Below are positions 2,433 to 45,400 of a stretch of 64,000 nt of DNA, piece after piece (position 1 is the stretch's first letter; each line of letters starts with the position of its first letter). The DNA is from a virus. Under the pieces are notes generated by a model. That model saw only the letters and a program-made list of their open reading frames with translations. It did not search any database and had not been told where the DNA came from. The translations under genes and the position numbers were made by a program. The stretch lies in the IMG/VR virus record IMGVR_UViG_3300049830_000285, positions 62,001 to 126,000 of that record, one strand, 5' to 3'.

Positions 2433-3154
2433 TATTGTTGTTGTACCTCTTGTGGATTATTGTTAGAAATGGGTGCATTAGCCTGCATTTGCTCGTCTTG
2501 TTTTAAATACTGAGGTACAAATTCGGTTCCCTCTCCTTCTGGCAGCAAGCCAGTTGCCTCCATATCTTTGCGATGGATTAGAGTATATGTTTTGCTCGTT
2601 TCAAGAGCATTGGGCGTATCTGAGGCAGAAGACACAAAACGTGGATATTCAACCTCAACATCCATATAACCACCGGAAACGTCATTATAAATTTCGATTG
2701 CATCAGGGGCATAAATACTTCCTTTCATTTTATTTAGGTGTTGGGCTTGTCGCTTTGTTACATTAATTGCCATAACCCAACCGCCACGGTCGTGTGCGAA
2801 TTGAATAGCTTTATCTATTGGAAGATTCAAATGCATTGGTTCCTTTAAATTGTAGACGACAATATGAAACTTATCAGCACACGTATAATCTTCCCCTGGC
2901 GCTACATAAATATCTAATCCAGATTGTTTTGCGATTTGTGTTGCTTGCCATCCTACTTGTGGACTGTTCGGAGCCACAATACCCACCATATCTAATCCTT
3001 TAATGATAGCTGATGTAAGCATTGATTTCAAAACTGAACTAACATCATTTGTGTTGGCAACCTGGGACATATCGCCTGGATATACGCGCAAATCTACGCG
3101 CATTTGATGTTTGCGTAAAGATGTTCGTATAGATTGCGGTGTATACCAGGACAT
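2432..3154 (-). CDS. PHP-fold protein lacking metal ligands, next to connector gene
   Basis: 240 residues. Residues 20-160 follow the PHP (polymerase and histidinol phosphatase) domain order: DLRVYPGD at 21-28 where active enzymes have a DxHxH motif, GLDMVGIVAPN at 53-63 where they have xxTDHN, APGEDY at 85-90 matching the PGxE strand, GGWVMAINV at 124-132 where a histidine follows the strand, and DAIEIYND at 151-158 matching the IExxN signature. Almost all metal-binding histidines are replaced, so catalysis is unlikely. The last 80 residues are Gln/Asn-rich. Coupling to the DUF1320-like gene suggests a structural role in the virion or its assembly. The fold call rests on motif order only. 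Confidence 0.6.
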   Translation of the reverse strand: MSWYTPQSIRTSLRKHQMRVDLRVYPGDMSQVANTNDVSSVLKSMLTSAIIKGLDMVGIVAPNSPQVGWQATQIAKQSGLDIYVAPGEDYTCADKFHIVVYNLKEPMHLNLPIDKAIQFAHDRGGWVMAINVTKRQAQHLNKMKGSIYAPDAIEIYNDVSGGYMDVEVEYPRFVSSASDTPNALETSKTYTLIHRKDMEATGLLPEGEGTEFVPQYLKQDEQMQANAPISNNNPQEVQQQ

Positions 3155-3189
3155 TCTATATTTGCTTTCTGCAAATTAGTCTGGATGTC

Positions 3190-3840
3190 CTATTGTCGTG
3201 CGCAACCACAATCAGAACAGAATTTTTCTCTATCATGAAACTTACGACCACATTCAATACAAAATAAATTAATCTTTTGAAGCCTGCCGCAACTAGAGCA
3301 AAACTTAGCATTATATGGCAAAGTTACATTACATTCTGAATCCGCACATAATTTAGTTCCAGCACTATAAATATCTTCACTCTCAGAAGAGTTTTTAGCC
3401 ACCTTGCGTACTCTATTGTCTAAAACAGCTAATTCTGTGTTAGAAGTTGAATGTGATGCGTTAGATGCCGTAAGCACGCGCTGCGTTGACTGTTGTAAAT
3501 CATCTTCGATGTTTAAAAGTAAATCATCCATATCTTTGTCGGTTATTCCAACACTAGACACTTGCGTTTCTTCTGGAAGCTCTTTCTCTGGTTCATCTTC
3601 GTCCTCATCAAGAGGCATGTTATATTTTTTTGCCAAGTCTTTCATCTGTTGCGAATCCCAAATACTAATATCTGCGCGAGGCATACCAGTTTCTGGGTCA
3701 ATTGTGAAATTTACCTTATCATCTGTAATCGCTGCATCTGGTTTGGCTTGCAACACAGTGTGCCCATATTGATTTTTGGTGATTTCTCTAAAACCAGGCT
3801 CACCGGGTTTTGCATTAAAATTAAAGCGTTCTGTACTCAT
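3190..3840 (-). CDS. Hypothetical protein with C-terminal double zinc ribbon
   Basis: 216 residues. The N-terminal 160 residues are acidic and low in complexity (DEDEDEPEKEL near residue 80) and probably disordered. The C-terminus carries two zinc-ribbon units: Cys pairs in CADSEC and CSSCG, then CIECG and CSDCG. This arrangement resembles zinc-ribbon tails that mediate protein contacts. No enzyme motif is visible. It lies between the PHP-like gene and another small hypothetical on the same strand, so it probably belongs to the same late transcript. Function is unknown. Confidence 0.7.
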   Translation of the reverse strand: MSTERFNFNAKPGEPGFREITKNQYGHTVLQAKPDAAITDDKVNFTIDPETGMPRADISIWDSQQMKDLAKKYNMPLDEDEDEPEKELPEETQVSSVGITDKDMDDLLLNIEDDLQQSTQRVLTASNASHSTSNTELAVLDNRVRKVAKNSSESEDIYSAGTKLCADSECNVTLPYNAKFCSSCGRLQKINLFCIECGRKFHDREKFCSDCGCARQ

Positions 3841-3879
3841 TTTTTGACCTTTTTTTGTTTCTGGCCGACTCCGAGTTGT

Positions 3880-4329
3880 TTATACAGCAGGTTTCATTTG
3901 TTTTGCTTCAGACTTAGACCATTTAAAACTTTCAACATCCACTCCAAGTTGGTCGCCAATACCCAAAATGTAATTCATCATATCAGCTTCAGAAACACCG
4001 TCAGGTGCTTTGAAGATAACAGTACACGTATGAGTCTTTCTGTCATCCACAACTGGCTCTTCGCCTGGACGCATTTTTACAAAACTAGAAATACCAGGGT
4101 TCATCGAGGATTCTTGTTCGCCTTCATCGGCTGTATCGCCCTCATCTGCCATATTTTGGAAAGACGGATTGTACCCGCCACTACCGCCAGCCATATTAGT
4201 TGATTGCCCAGTGTCTCCAAAGAATTGAGCGATTCTGCGCAACTCTTTAGCTCGTGGGTGGTTAATAGATTCCAATTTGCTTGCAATCCTTTCAATATTC
4301 TGCTTCATTTCTGCAACGTTCTCTTTCAT
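3880..4329 (-). CDS. Small helical hypothetical protein
   Basis: 149 residues from the ATG at 4329. That start is chosen over an in-frame GTG at 4365 because AGGTGG lies 4 nt upstream of the ATG. The N-terminus is a helical pair (IERIASKLESINHPRAKELR), followed by a Gly/Asn/Glu-rich linker and a C-terminal alpha/beta segment with CTVIFKAPDGVSEADMMNYI. The helical pair resembles the N-terminus of the protein at 25799-26173. No family was recognised. The gene may belong to the virion cluster that follows it on the same strand. Confidence 0.65.
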   Translation of the reverse strand: MKENVAEMKQNIERIASKLESINHPRAKELRRIAQFFGDTGQSTNMAGGSGGYNPSFQNMADEGDTADEGEQESSMNPGISSFVKMRPGEEPVVDDRKTHTCTVIFKAPDGVSEADMMNYILGIGDQLGVDVESFKWSKSEAKQMKPAV

Positions 4330-4448: not shown

Positions 4449-5618
4449 TTACTTATTAAGATTCGTTTCGAACTTTCTAAGTGCCTCTAGAATTTCTCCT
4501 TCAGAGGATTTATCGAGAATATCTGACATACTCATTCCTTTCTTTCGATATTCTACTGCTTCAGGCCAAATTTTATTGATTGGATGCTCGCTTAATATCT
4601 TGGGGTCAGTGTTATCAGCAATTTCTGCATATGAATCATTAACATATTTAGACAGTGTAAGCATTCTATTAATTAGCGATTGTGTTGAGAATATTTCCCC
4701 GGTTATTCCGCTGCTAAGCGAAGCATGACTACCAGTACCTCCTCCACCACTACCCGTGTTATAGCCACTTCCTGCATCCATCATGCGAATTTCTCGCAAA
4801 GCTGTAAGTTCATCTTGCGGAGAATAAAATTGAAGCATTTGAAGAAATTTGGGATTTCTTAATTTTAATCTGTGAAAATATTTGTCGATGAGAATATAAC
4901 CCTCGTAAGATAATGGGTCACTATTCTTCTCAATCAATTTTTGAGCACTTTCTAAATCTTTTACTTTCACGAAAGGTACTTTTAAATTTGGAAATTCCAT
5001 CTCATAAATATCTAATTCTTCTAATGTATCTCGGGCTATGGCAGCTATCAGAGTAACTTTTCTATCTGTGTAAACTACCACAACTCTATTTTCGGGTGAT
5101 GTTATTTCAAATGTGTAGAAAATATCTTGATTGAGTTGCGAAGTGAATGTATTCCAATCACTTCCCATGTCTTGAATGCATTTTTCCACTAGCTGTCGCC
5201 AAGTATAATTTGAAGGACTAGCGTTAATTGTGTAATTTTTGATATCACCATCAGTGGAATGTCTAGTACATACGCGCCATTCATTCTGATAATGGTAAAA
5301 TGTGATAAGAGCGCCATCTAATTTGGTCATAGCCCGAGCGCTTGACCAGTCAAAGTTAGCAATGGTTGGTGCTGCATAAGTTTCTTCTACTGCGAAAAAA
5401 GCCTCAGGCGACTTACTTACAACATTCCATGTTCCTACTTCCAGCACGAGTGCGCGACTCTCTTGTACAATTTTCGAATCCATTGGTGAAAGAACTCTGT
5501 AATTAAATACTACTCGTTGGTTGTCAGACGAGTAGTTGTGTTGAATCTCATATCTTTGGTATAAATCTTCTAGGGTTTTACCAGAGCGTAAAAAAGTTTG
5601 AATGGCGAGTTCTTTCAT
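4449..5618 (-). CDS. RNA ligase, T4 Rnl1-like
   Basis: 389 residues, close to T4 RnlA (374). ATP-dependent ligases of this family activate and join RNA ends, and T4 Rnl1 repairs cleaved tRNA anticodon loops. Nucleotidyltransferase motifs are present in order: motif I KLDG at 99-102 (adenylated Lys99), a FEIT strand at 170-173 as motif IIIa, YEGYILI at 238-244 as motif IV, and KLRN at 252-255 as motif V. A Gly/Ser-rich linker around residue 290 separates the catalytic core from a helical C-terminal domain of about 90 residues, where Rnl1 enzymes bind tRNA. No polynucleotide kinase is visible in this window. The start has no obvious Shine-Dalgarno. Confidence 0.85.
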   Translation of the reverse strand: MKELAIQTFLRSGKTLEDLYQRYEIQHNYSSDNQRVVFNYRVLSPMDSKIVQESRALVLEVGTWNVVSKSPEAFFAVEETYAAPTIANFDWSSARAMTKLDGALITFYHYQNEWRVCTRHSTDGDIKNYTINASPSNYTWRQLVEKCIQDMGSDWNTFTSQLNQDIFYTFEITSPENRVVVVYTDRKVTLIAAIARDTLEELDIYEMEFPNLKVPFVKVKDLESAQKLIEKNSDPLSYEGYILIDKYFHRLKLRNPKFLQMLQFYSPQDELTALREIRMMDAGSGYNTGSGGGGTGSHASLSSGITGEIFSTQSLINRMLTLSKYVNDSYAEIADNTDPKILSEHPINKIWPEAVEYRKKGMSMSDILDKSSEGEILEALRKFETNLNK

Positions 5619-5669
5619 GAATATGTTTTTCGCATTAAGGAATCAATTTACCTTATACGACAAGTGACC

Positions 5670-23013: not shown

Positions 23014-25815
23014 ATGTGGTATGGAAAAATGTTGAAAGCAAATAAAAATGGAATCTCACGAGAGGAATTGAACATCCCTCTGAGCGGCGCTTTGCAACAA
23101 ATTCTACAAACATTGGTACAAAATGGCTGGAGAGGCTTGGTCGTTGGCGGGGCTGTTCGAGACGCTGTAACAGGTCATGTTCCCAAGGATATCGACGTTG
23201 AAGTTTACGGGCCTGATTTCAAACAGCTTGCGGCAGTTCTCAAGCAATATGGTCATGTACTTGGCGGCGCAGCGGATGAATCAGTAGACGATAATTCATA
23301 TCAAGAATTTGTGCCCATTCCTTATTTTCCAGAAAAGTTCAGGGATTCACAACCATCTCAAATGAGTTCAGATGGCCCAATTCCCAATCAAGGGTGGATG
23401 TACAATCTAAATCCAAAGCCTCAAAAATCTCCTGTTATTGGAAAGGCGTTCGGTGTTATCAAATTTAGAGATGCCGAAGGGAACGATTATGACTTCTCCT
23501 TACCTCGTCGTGACAGTAAGACGGGTGAGGGTCACACTGGATTTGATATTCAAGTAGACCCAAATATGTCTCCACTTGAGGCTGCATCACGGCGTGATTT
23601 TACGTTTAATTGTTTTTCATCTGAAACAAGAATGTTGACAAAAGCTGGAATTTTTAGTTTTTCAGAGTTGGTAGAACAGTATGTTGATGTTTTAAATCAA
23701 AACGGTGAATGGGTCAATGCTTTAATTAGAGCATGCGGACAACAGCCGTTAATGAAGTTAATTTTACAAAGAAATGGAGTTAAAAAAGAAATATTTGTAA
23801 CACCAAATCACAGATGGTTTGTGCGCAACAAACATACTGGAAATTACACATCTGTACGCACCACTGAAGAATTAAAAAAATGTCATTTTATATCATCTGT
23901 TTTTCCTAAAAATATTTCAAAAGATGTTATCCCAAATAATGATGCAATATGTCGCGGGTTTGTGTTTGGCGATGGGTCTTTAACATATGGTAGTAGAAAC
24001 ATTGCTAGTGTTGCAAATTTTTGTGGAGAGAAAGACAAAAATTTATTACCTTGTTTTTCAAAACTCCCTGTAGGTTGTTCTCCAAGAGAATACCCTGGTG
24101 TCATAAAAATTCAAGGATTGCCATTTGAGTGGAAAGCCCATGTTCCTGATTTAGAACACGAAGATACATCGTATTTATATGGATGGTTGGCGGGATATTT
24201 TGCCGCAGACGGCTGTGTTGATAAAAAAGGGTGCCCGACATTAAGTTCTGCATCGTTAGAAAACATTGAATATGTAAAAATGTTATGTCAAAAACTAGGA
24301 ATAGGAACTTTACACACAAGTGTTTCTCACGGAGGCGCTGGGGCATACAAACCAGACTCTGTGTGTTATATACTTGCTTTTGTAAGGTCAACACTATGCC
24401 CTGAGTTTTTTGTAATTCCTGAACACAGAAAAAGATTTGTGTCTCATCAATACAATAGAGAAAGAACTGGATGGAGCGTTGTTTCAGTTGAAGAAACTGA
24501 CCGTTACGAAGAAGTTTTTTGCGCAGAAGTGCCAATTGACCATGCATTTGTTTTAGAGCACAATGTATTAACTTCGAATTCACTTGCATACGACCCGTTG
24601 ACAAACGAACTTCATGATTACTTTGGCGGTAAAAAAGATTTGGATAATCGAATTTTGCGTGCTACAGATATGGAAAAATTTGGGGAAGACCCACTGCGCG
24701 TTTTGCGCGGTATGCAATTTGCTGCCAGAATGGGATTGACAGTAGACCCGCAAACTGCAAAGTTGGCGCAAAATCTTGCAAATGAAATTCCTAATCTTTA
24801 TAAGTCTCCAGAGAATCCAAATGGCATCTCTCGCGAACGTGTAACTGAAGAATTTATGAAGCTTGCTACCAAGGGTAAATTCCCAGGTAGTGCAATTCAG
24901 TACCTTCAAGATACTGGTTGGGTAAAATACTTCCCGCAAGTTCAGGCTATCATTGATGTACCGCAGGATGAAGAGTGGCACCCAGAGGGAGCTGTACATA
25001 TTCACACAGCACACGTCATGAACGCTGCTGCTGAAATCGCTGATAGGCGCGGTTTGAAAGGTGATGACAGGGCTGTTGCAATCTTTGCAGCGCTCGGGCA
25101 CGACTTCGCTAAAGCAACGACAACAGAGCAGCGCGAAAAGGGCGGACGAATGCGATGGACGGCACATGGGCACGAAGAGGCTGGCGGGCCGGTGGTAAAA
25201 GAGTTTTTACAGAGCATCGGAGTTAAAAATGACATTATTAATCGTGTTGTTCCGCTTGTCCGTAAGCATTTGAATCACATTCAATACAAAGACGAGAACA
25301 TTTCCAAGGGAACTGTTCGTGGTTTGTCGCATGATATTTACCCTGCGACTATAGAAGACTTGGTTGACTTGATTGAAGCAGACCATTCTGGACGCCCGCC
25401 TTTGGAGAAGATGCTACCAGAGCAAGCTCAATGGTTATTGGATGCGGCTAAGAAAGATAATGTTCACAATCAGAAGCCACAACAGGTTATCACTGGAAAG
25501 CATGTATTGCCATGGTTCCAGGGTAAAGTTGGCCCGCACGTCGGAAAAGCAGTTAAGGAAGCTTATGAAGCCTACTTAAAGGGCAGATACACCACCCCAG
25601 AAGAGGCAGAAGTATGGTTACGCAACTATATGAAGGCAAATGCTCAATTACTGCGTGGTGATGATGTTTTGCCATATTTTGGCGGTAAAGGCGGCGCTCA
25701 AGTCGGACAAATATTAGATAAAGCCTGGGACGCTCAATCTGCTGGTGAATATACTGACCAAGATGCAGCGAGAGCTTGGTTGGAAAACTATATGAAAACT
25801 AACCCATCCGCTTAA
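23014..25815 (+). CDS. CCA-adding enzyme (tRNA nucleotidyltransferase) interrupted by an intein
   Basis: 933 residues including a 323-residue intein (200-522); the spliced enzyme would be 610. It adds or repairs the 3' CCA of tRNA. The N-terminal nucleotidyltransferase has VVGGAVRDA at 43-51 and DIDVEVYG at 59-66, with the catalytic Asp pair. The next conserved block, RRDFTFN, ends at 199, and its continuation SLAYDPLTNELHDYFGG resumes at 523, so the intein cuts this motif. An HD domain follows: HxxH near 660 and GHD near 693. The C-terminus carries two copies of a domain that ends bacterial CCA enzymes, at about 820-872 and 879-931, each beginning VLP(W/Y)F. The ATG is chosen, with only a weak ribosome site. 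Confidence 0.9.
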   Translation: MWYGKMLKANKNGISREELNIPLSGALQQILQTLVQNGWRGLVVGGAVRDAVTGHVPKDIDVEVYGPDFKQLAAVLKQYGHVLGGAADESVDDNSYQEFVPIPYFPEKFRDSQPSQMSSDGPIPNQGWMYNLNPKPQKSPVIGKAFGVIKFRDAEGNDYDFSLPRRDSKTGEGHTGFDIQVDPNMSPLEAASRRDFTFNCFSSETRMLTKAGIFSFSELVEQYVDVLNQNGEWVNALIRACGQQPLMKLILQRNGVKKEIFVTPNHRWFVRNKHTGNYTSVRTTEELKKCHFISSVFPKNISKDVIPNNDAICRGFVFGDGSLTYGSRNIASVANFCGEKDKNLLPCFSKLPVGCSPREYPGVIKIQGLPFEWKAHVPDLEHEDTSYLYGWLAGYFAADGCVDKKGCPTLSSASLENIEYVKMLCQKLGIGTLHTSVSHGGAGAYKPDSVCYILAFVRSTLCPEFFVIPEHRKRFVSHQYNRERTGWSVVSVEETDRYEEVFCAEVPIDHAFVLEHNVLTSNSLAYDPLTNELHDYFGGKKDLDNRILRATDMEKFGEDPLRVLRGMQFAARMGLTVDPQTAKLAQNLANEIPNLYKSPENPNGISRERVTEEFMKLATKGKFPGSAIQYLQDTGWVKYFPQVQAIIDVPQDEEWHPEGAVHIHTAHVMNAAAEIADRRGLKGDDRAVAIFAALGHDFAKATTTEQREKGGRMRWTAHGHEEAGGPVVKEFLQSIGVKNDIINRVVPLVRKHLNHIQYKDENISKGTVRGLSHDIYPATIEDLVDLIEADHSGRPPLEKMLPEQAQWLLDAAKKDNVHNQKPQQVITGKHVLPWFQGKVGPHVGKAVKEAYEAYLKGRYTTPEEAEVWLRNYMKANAQLLRGDDVLPYFGGKGGAQVGQILDKAWDAQSAGEYTDQDAARAWLENYMKTNPSA
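23611..24579 (+). other. Intein with LAGLIDADG (DOD) homing endonuclease
   Basis: Residues 200-522 of the CCA-adding enzyme. Block A starts with Cys200 (CFSSETRMLTKAG). Block B has the TPNH signature at 263-266. Two DOD endonuclease motifs follow: CRGFVFGDGSL at 313-323 and LYGWLAGYFAADG at 388-400. Block F contains VFCAEVPIDHAFVLEHN, and the C-terminal block is VLTSN522, followed by Ser523 as the +1 extein residue. The penultimate residue is Ser, not the usual His. All splicing blocks are present, so a functional intein is likely. It sits exactly in the conserved RRDFTxN/xLAYDP motif of the enzyme. Confidence 0.95.
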
Positions 25816-42442: not shown

Positions 42443-45400
42443 ATGGCCGCACCAACTTTTACATCAGCACTGACGAGCCAAGACGGATTAACAGTTGAAA
42501 TCTTACTTGGTGGCTCTGGGGTTACATCAATCATCCCTGCCACGGGAGCTATTACGGGCTGGACATTAGTCCAAGACCCCGCTGGTTCGGCAACAACTAT
42601 TCCAATTACGACAGCTTATCGAAAGGGCTCGTCTGGTGCTGATGCACTTACTGTTGTTCTTACACTTCAAACTAGATTAACCGCCTTAAGTGTATTGAAA
42701 TTATCCTATTCATCTGGAACAGGAAATATCACCGACCAAACTGCTGCCTTCCCAATGGCAACTTATGCTGGCAGTAACAGCAACTGCGTTAATTATACTG
42801 GGCGTCCCGTATTTTTATCTGCTGCCACCAGTTTAGATGGTCAATTTATTGACATTGTTTTTAATGATTATGATAGCACTTCTATTTTGCCATCTAATCA
42901 GGGAATTCCTGGATTCATAGTCAAGGTTGGTGGTAGTGGTGGAACCTCCCAAACCTTTCCAAACCCAATTAGAAAGGGCGATTCTGGCTCAGACCTTAAA
43001 ACTGTTCGAATCACATTAACGACACCGCTGCTTTATACTGATTCAAACATAGTTGTTAAATACACACCAGATGTTTCTGTATTTATTACTGATAATAGTG
43101 CCCCTCCTGTTCCGACTCTGGCATTTGATTATCAATCAGTTACACAAAATACTATTGAAAGAATAGCCCCAGCATTTGCAAGTGCTCACACATCAACAGA
43201 TGGTTATAGTGTCTATGTAGTATTTACAGAAACGGGCCCGCCGTCTCCGGGTAAAATTTTACCAGAAAGCATTAATATCGCTGGATTTACGATAACAGAA
43301 GATGTCGGCGCTGGTTATGTTACTAGAAATCAAGTTAGTGCCATTCGAAGTACCGATACTATGGATGCAAATTATTTGCGAACCATAATTATCACTCTGA
43401 ACACGCCTTTAACATACAATAAAGTATATAAAATTGCATATGCTAATGTAACTGGCAAACCAAAAGTAACTGATGGAGCCACAATACCTAATAATCTTTT
43501 GGCATTCACTTCTTCACCAGTAACCAACACCACCACATATGAGCGCATTCTTCCAGTTTTTCTTAGCGCCACTACTAGTAGCACAAATCTTGTTTTAGTG
43601 AATTTTACAGAGGCTAATTCTGTTCCATTAGCGCCAACATCACCAAGTGGCTTTATTTTACGAGCAAATGGCGCAAATATTCCATTTAGTATAACTAGAA
43701 CAAGCAACACTCAATACACACTAACGCGAACTGATTATAAAACCTGGGGTGCAGAAGATTATATCACCGTTGAATATGTTCAACCAACTTCTAATTTTGT
43801 AACTGATGCAGCTCCAGCTAGTAATAAATTAGCTAGTTTCGGGCCAAATGTTGTAACAAACGCTATTGTAAATAATACATCAGCACCATTGTTTGTTCGT
43901 GCTGCTACAAATGTTACCGGGAATAGTATTGTAGTTTATATTCGCGAAAATCACAGCTTTCCACCATATATTAACCCATCAACTGGAATTACAGGGTTTT
44001 ATGTTACTGTAAATGGAGTTCCCAGAGACATTATTTCCGCAGTTCGTGGAAATACTATCACAACATTTACAGATGTAAACCGCACCATCAATTTAGCTTT
44101 GGCTTATCCAGTTAGGGCAAAAGATTTGATTAAACTAAATTATTACAATGGTAATGTGGTTGATGTAGATACAGATTCTTCTCCTAATAATTTAGGAAAT
44201 TTCTCATCATTGGTGGAAAACACGACTGCGGCTAAAATCTTTGGAACCAATGTTGCGTTTGCTACTTTTGACTCTGATGAAATATTTAGAACTCAACAAT
44301 TCGATATTCTTCGTTCTTATGGAATACAGTGGATAAGAGATTATCAAGTAGACGGACAGGTGGACACTAATCCGGGTACCCAAACTGTGAATCGTGCGCA
44401 TGCTGTTGTTGTTGCTCGTCAGGCATTAGATTTAGATATCACACCATCTATTGTTTTGGCTGATTCCAATTACGGAATCGAGAATTCAGATGGAGTTAAC
44501 TTTACAGCCGCTAATTTTAATGCTTTCAAACATCGTTTTGCTGACCCAGCAGAGAAATCTGATGTACGACGAGCAATGTTGTGCGCCGCTATTGCTGGCA
44601 ACCTAACAACAGTCTTAACCTGGGTTTTAAATGACGTAAGTGCATTAAATGAACTATTCCCATATGGAACAGTTGGAGAAGAATTTAATGGGCCTAGATT
44701 ATATGAATGGAGATATTTAGCACCAAATGGTGGCTGTTCATGGGATGCATTTGAGCGCGTTTTATCCGGGACACGCGGAGCAGTTGTGTTTAATGTCTCT
44801 GGAAATGTAACGTCTGGAAGTGCATTACCAACAAGCACGGATTTTGCAACATTTTGCGCAGCATTGCCAGTACCTATTAACTTTACTGCTGTTTCAGAAA
44901 GTACATTGAGGTCGCGTTTCGAAAGCTTCAGAGCTTCGTTAGCTACTCGATGGACTAAGGGCGGAACATTGGGTAAAAGCGTCTTAGTGGAAAATGACGA
45001 TAGTAGCACCCTGGAAATTGGAGATTCTTCTTCTCGTGTTGTAACAGCTTTCAATTACAAACGATATGATTCTATTAGCGGTGACCCAGTAGTGAATAGG
45101 GGAGCTAAACAAATAGCTTTGGCACAAACTTTATATAATGCGAATTATCACACGGTGTTATTAGACGAATGGACTGAAAGAACTATAGATATTACTTTTA
45201 CTCTTGGTTCTGGAAAAACCATGCCTTTATGGACTGCTGGAACAGCAGCAGGTTCTTATTATGCTTTATTGGCAAATGATGTTACAAATTACGGTAATCT
45301 TTCTGCGTCACATCTTTGTATAGACCAAACAGACTGTGACGCGGCTATGCATTCAATTTCCCAATTGTTTGAACTTACGCAAGCTTCAAATGATTTATCT

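Follow-up and report, generated by a model that had tools for sequence, protein, structure and literature searches.

Does an open frame for a phage tRNA nucleotidyltransferase carry, inside one of its nucleotide-binding motifs, an intein that can still splice and still move? The frame lies in a stretch of 64,000 nucleotides (here, the window) of a 177,708-base IMG/VR virus record. The original prediction, of a LAGLIDADG intein interrupting motif B in the CCA-adding enzyme of a phage, is backed by homology, by empty sites and a second occupied site in other phages, and by a predicted fold. The source is a large bacterial virus with an intein and homing endonuclease inside a tRNA-end-repair enzyme, and the intein is real and probably active. 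We consider it highly likely that the insert is a mobile intein, splicing out of a 933-aa precursor to leave a 610-aa CCA-adding enzyme, with the freed intein homing to intein-free CCA alleles.

The interrupted gene and its surroundings

Positions 23014-25815 (+) form a single open frame of 933 aa. The insert, 323 codons at 23611-24579, is in frame, with a Cys directly 3′ of RRDFTFN and ...NVLTSN directly 5′ of SLAYDP, splitting motif B at codon precision; the spliced product has 610 aa. These limits and this product length, already given in the original prediction, proved exact when the open frame was rechecked (Table 1). On both flanks of the insert, the frame matches tRNA nucleotidyltransferase phrog_2244 (5.7e-57), PolyA_pol, and HD. 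The exteins retain motifs A to D and the HD domain, with the features of class II CCA-adding enzymes: a PolyA_pol head with GG..VRD..DxD, and the RRD and EDxxR motifs. The C-extein carries a duplicated C-terminal helical tail. By these sequence features, the host is a CCA-adding enzyme, and phrog_2244 is its best family match. A dN of 0.20 against saturated dS in the N-extein indicates purifying selection. The intein has a GC content of 0.358, compared to 0.439 and 0.460 for the exteins, and the intein of a second phage, described below, is likewise AT-richer than its exteins. At 23254-23430, about 40-57 additional N-extein residues lie between motifs A and B; they are missing from the genome G001 and mostly missing from the relative L026.

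About 20 tRNA genes are found in the phage, all with an encoded 3′ CCA except one doubtful prediction. This makes it more likely that the enzyme serves in repair of tRNA ends than in their first maturation. Among these tRNAs is a predicted one with a CTA anticodon, a possible UAG suppressor (L012 3328-3402; G000 43328-43402); TAG is the stop codon of 11 of about 90 long frames despite this prediction. An RNA ligase-like gene (phrog_562) is present at 4449-5618 of the window. The two large genes that border the CCA gene have relatives in the related phage L040, where they again lie on either side of it.

Table 1. Features of the interrupted gene (window coordinates; a slash marks a splice junction)
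Feature	Position	Strand	Basis or remark
N-extein: nucleotidyltransferase head, motif A (VVGGAVRDAVTGHVPKDID)	23014..23610	+	Pfam/PHROG matches, window residues; 59% identical to second intein-bearing phage
Motif B, first half, RRDFTFN	23590-23610	+	End of N-extein
Intein, 323 aa, with LAGLIDADG homing endonuclease domain	23611..24579	+	Pfam, homology, predicted fold
Splicing block A; nucleophile (candidate) Cys1 at 23611-23613	23611..23649	+	Family alignment, window residues
Splicing block B, IFVTPNHRWFVR: T64, H67, W69 (W of WCT)	23791..23826	+	Family alignment, window residues
LAGLIDADG motif 1, ICRGFVFGDG; catalytic D121 at 23971-23973	23947..23976	+	Family alignment, window residues
LAGLIDADG motif 2, LYGWLAGYFAADG; catalytic D200 at 24208-24210	24175..24213	+	Pfam, family alignment, window residues
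Splicing block F, EEVFCAEVPIDHAFVL; Cys304 at F:4 (C of WCT)	24508..24555	+	Family alignment, window residues
Splicing block G, HNVLTSN/S: T321 (T of WCT), S322 penultimate, N323 terminal, +1 Ser	24559..24582	+	Family alignment, window residues
C-extein: rest of motif B (SLAYDP), later motifs, HD, tail, stop codon	24580..25815	+	Pfam/PHROG matches, window residues
Motif C	24592-24660	+	In C-extein
Motif D, EDPLRVLR	24685-24708	+	In C-extein
HD domain	24997-25290	+	In C-extein

Splicing residues, fold, and proposed route

The insert has the hallmarks of an intein: it sits in frame at a conserved site, is missing from orthologues, and has Cys1, the T..H pair of block B, a terminal Asn, and a +1 Ser. 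Its two LAGLIDADG motifs, each with a catalytic acidic residue (D121 and D200), and a match to Pfam LAGLIDADG_3 (9.5e-9) mark a homing endonuclease. Pfam Intein_splicing was matched with 23.5 bits, short of its curated cut-off of 35.8 bits. An AlphaFold2 model of the intein (pLDDT 80.7, pTM 0.79) predicts a HINT plus LAGLIDADG fold, and Foldseek matched this model to the TliVMA intein, PI-SceI, PI-PfuI, and the Mxe GyrA intein (E down to 1.3e-12). Searching the PDB by sequence with the intein alone gave no match; a profile search reached PI-PfuI weakly.

We imagine that the 933-aa precursor is translated and that the intein folds as a HINT domain carrying the endonuclease. Cys1 would then attack the Asn199-Cys1 junction, the N-extein would be transferred to Ser+1, and cyclisation of Asn323 would release the 610-aa enzyme with an intact motif B. 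Since the nucleotide-binding motif is split before splicing, the precursor should be inactive. Splicing, the use of Cys1 rather than Cys304 as nucleophile, enzyme activity of the product, and DNA cleavage are all things that we infer.

The splicing blocks and the two DOD motifs of the original prediction stood up to rechecking of their residues in the window; what it had overlooked was a class 3-type WCT motif (W69, C304, and T321). With Cys304 present as well, Cys1 is a candidate for the initiating nucleophile, and one can envision a class 3 route in which Cys304 in block F, not Cys1, attacks the N-terminal junction. All three WCT residues are present, and among the relatives W and C are invariant and T is found in 83/86. 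Class 3 inteins, however, are defined by the absence of a position-1 nucleophile, Cys or Ser (PMC7664689, PMC5050341), but the CCA intein has Cys1, a class 1-type residue conserved in 85/86 family members, and we therefore do not assign it to class 3. Canonical splicing has also been reported for a class 1 intein with a WCT motif (Reitter and Mills 2011), and overall we regard the Cys304 route as unlikely. A more elaborate idea, that splicing could take either route (Cys1/Cys304) with redox sensitivity and that the intein would thereby switch tRNA repair of the phage post-translationally, giving active enzyme only under certain infection conditions, strikes us as decidedly improbable. If it were true, the family with both Cys1 and WCT (in RtcB, DnaG, RNR, and CCA enzymes) would stand, in its mechanism, between class 1 and class 3.

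Has splicing instead been lost, leaving an enzyme that is dead or cut in two? The noncanonical penultimate Ser would be in keeping with such degeneration, and this residue had been singled out in the original prediction as non-standard. That view does not survive the family comparison: in 86 members, the penultimate position holds Gly in 75, Ser in 4, Arg in 4, His in 2, and Ala in 1, so that doing without His there, as the CCA intein does with its Ser, is typical of the family. Penultimate Gly, Lys, and Ser are on record for class 1 inteins of mycobacteriophages, and in one of these a change of Gly to His increased precursor accumulation (PMC5050341). All of the splicing and nuclease residues are kept in two lineages about 47% diverged, there is no frameshift or stop, and the CCA exteins are conserved, whereas decay in this family looks like the relic L048 (see below). 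Loss of splicing is thus very improbable. Nor does the +1 Ser reflect adaptation to the intein, as had been proposed. Ser is found at this position in at least seven phage homologues without an intein (L028/L129, L042, L043, L044, L128, L131, and L132) and in E. coli poly(A) polymerase, consistent with a permissive native residue; Ala stands there in the closest empty relative, and Cys in the second intein-bearing phage.

Occupied and empty sites in other phages

A degenerate junction search of IMG/VR found one further phage contig, of 478,840 bp, with an intein at exactly this site, reading RRDFTMN/CFSGET...LLTSN/CLAYDPL. This second intein-bearing phage is a distantly related giant phage; compared to the window, its intein is 53% identical, its N-extein 59%, and its C-extein 53%. 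The other four of the five matches in that search were due to chance. The recurrence of the insert at this very codon in the second phage, together with full-length bacterial relatives up to 45% identical, excludes a chance resemblance. The window does come from an uncultivated assembly, and a chimera or assembly artefact might be suspected; an independent contig with the same junctions in diverged sequence refutes this and leaves it essentially no probability.

The site is empty in at least 10 related phage genes (L026, L027, L028/L129, L029, L040, L042, L043, L044, L131, and L132), and the uninterrupted relative MT835871 reads MRRDFTIN/AMMQDVLTGEIIDHFGG. In the extein tree, the closest empty relative, L026 (about 75-76% identical to the window enzyme), is the sister of the occupied window enzyme with 100/100 support, so that intein presence is patchy. 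If the endonuclease is active, the freed intein should cut intein-free CCA alleles at motif B, and repair from an intein-bearing copy would spread it. The closest intein-free relative matches 49/72 bases around the insertion site, which makes present-day cleavage of that allele uncertain.

It is possible, although we think it the lesser likelihood, that the intein splices with an endonuclease that no longer homes and is simply kept by descent. The two occupied phages are separated by 1.15 changes per column in the intein and 1.1 in the exteins (tree paths), about what is expected under long co-inheritance at one site. These near-equal distances fit such co-inheritance with losses, and comparing them gave no sign of recent intein transfer between the two lineages; independent gains in the two phages are possible. 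Against loss of homing, both catalytic Asp residues are kept in both phages, and the patchy distribution in close relatives, which takes two or more changes along the extein tree, is expected for homing gain plus loss. With two occupied and at least 10 empty alleles, the related phages lend themselves naturally to tests of homing and of loss.

Beyond these phages, IMG/VR searches with patterns from the window protein or the intein alone found no relative. No intein was seen at the CCA junction in 84,980 prokaryote genomes by a scan requiring RRDFT, Cys1, and D/E-T, which leaves room for other sites or variants. Nor was any found in a CCA-adding enzyme among 60 evenly spread samples of 467 CCA-like phage records, each represented by one aligned piece, many of them covering part of the enzyme. 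In annotated phages, among the matches listed, intein-like matches fell in RNR, hedgehog/hint, hypothetical, or unannotated genes.

The CCA gene may be a hotspot for mobile elements. In L042, an interruption of about 1 kb (4610-5640) follows EDPLRVLRGMQ and holds an HNH-type homing endonuclease ORF, and in L028, one of about 1.1 kb (2915-4000) lies at HPEG..HTAH and contains a NUMOD3 ORF. Both breaks resemble introns; Rfam gave no intron match in either gene. At HPEG..HTAH of the HD domain, L025 (10352-10822) and L040 (about 5040-5450) have an in-frame segment of about 150 aa, without a Pfam match for that of L025. Upstream of the CCA gene in L042 (2265-3311) and L028 (199-1260), at a distance of a few hundred bases, there is another ORF whose head is of the nucleotidyltransferase (PolyA_pol) type.

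Relation to known inteins

A LAGLIDADG intein is itself a well-known kind of element. The CCA-adding enzyme, in turn, appears to be a new intein host protein with a new site: we found no mention of an intein in this enzyme in the open-licence papers searched. Its description as an unusual host in the original prediction is supported together with the main reading. Known intein hosts would come to include a tRNA-repair enzyme, here interrupted in a nucleotide-binding motif.

Full-length relatives at 40-45% identity are found in bacterial RtcB and then DnaG, with remoter ones in RNR and a MobF-primase protein. In the family alignment (n = 86), H67, W69, C304, and D200 are present in all members, Cys1 and T64 in 85, and D121 and T321 in 83. 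The single member without Cys1 is the extein-less relic L048 (2001-2945, Rhodococcus sp. Leaf247), which is free-standing, with Cys1 replaced and the terminal Asn changed to Asp.

In the intein tree, CCA and RtcB inteins form sister groups (96/98 support). The latter (in Actinomycetota and Competibacteraceae; e.g., L045, L046, and L049) share 40-45% identity over 323 aa, Cys1, WCT, LAGLIDADG, and the terminal Asn, but their host is the RNA ligase RtcB, their site N/CHHNY, and their +1 residue Cys. RtcB is also encoded by G001 and two relatives, intein-free as judged from open frames of 389-408 aa. The sister relation hints that an intein jumped ectopically from one RNA-repair gene to another, the two genes being found together in some of these phages; a jump between RtcB and CCA genes inside such a phage is for now a lead, not a result.

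The inteins in the zinc finger of DnaG primase, among them that of the MobF-primase on Skermanella plasmid pSR-4 (L009), belong to the same family and share its layout, with Cys1, WCT, and a penultimate Gly; unlike the CCA intein, they occupy the CHC2 zinc finger (C[FH]GC) and fall outside the RtcB plus CCA clade. Phage RNR inteins (Thermobifida phage P318, Morganella phage MP1, and Vibrio phage ICP1 nrdA) also have LAGLIDADG and also lie in phage nucleotide-metabolism genes, those of P318 and MP1 with Cys1 and WCT, but they are 21-30% identical and interrupt another enzyme. Class 3 inteins (MchDnaB1 and mycobacteriophage TerL) have the W(B:12)-C(F:4)-T(G:5) motif in common with the CCA intein but no position-1 nucleophile. 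Finally, inteins of the mycobacteriophage "nucleotidyltransferase" (NT, POG1177) are likewise phage inteins in a similarly named host, which PMC5050341 calls a DNA nucleotidyltransferase, and are a possible precedent for inteins in CCA-adding enzymes.
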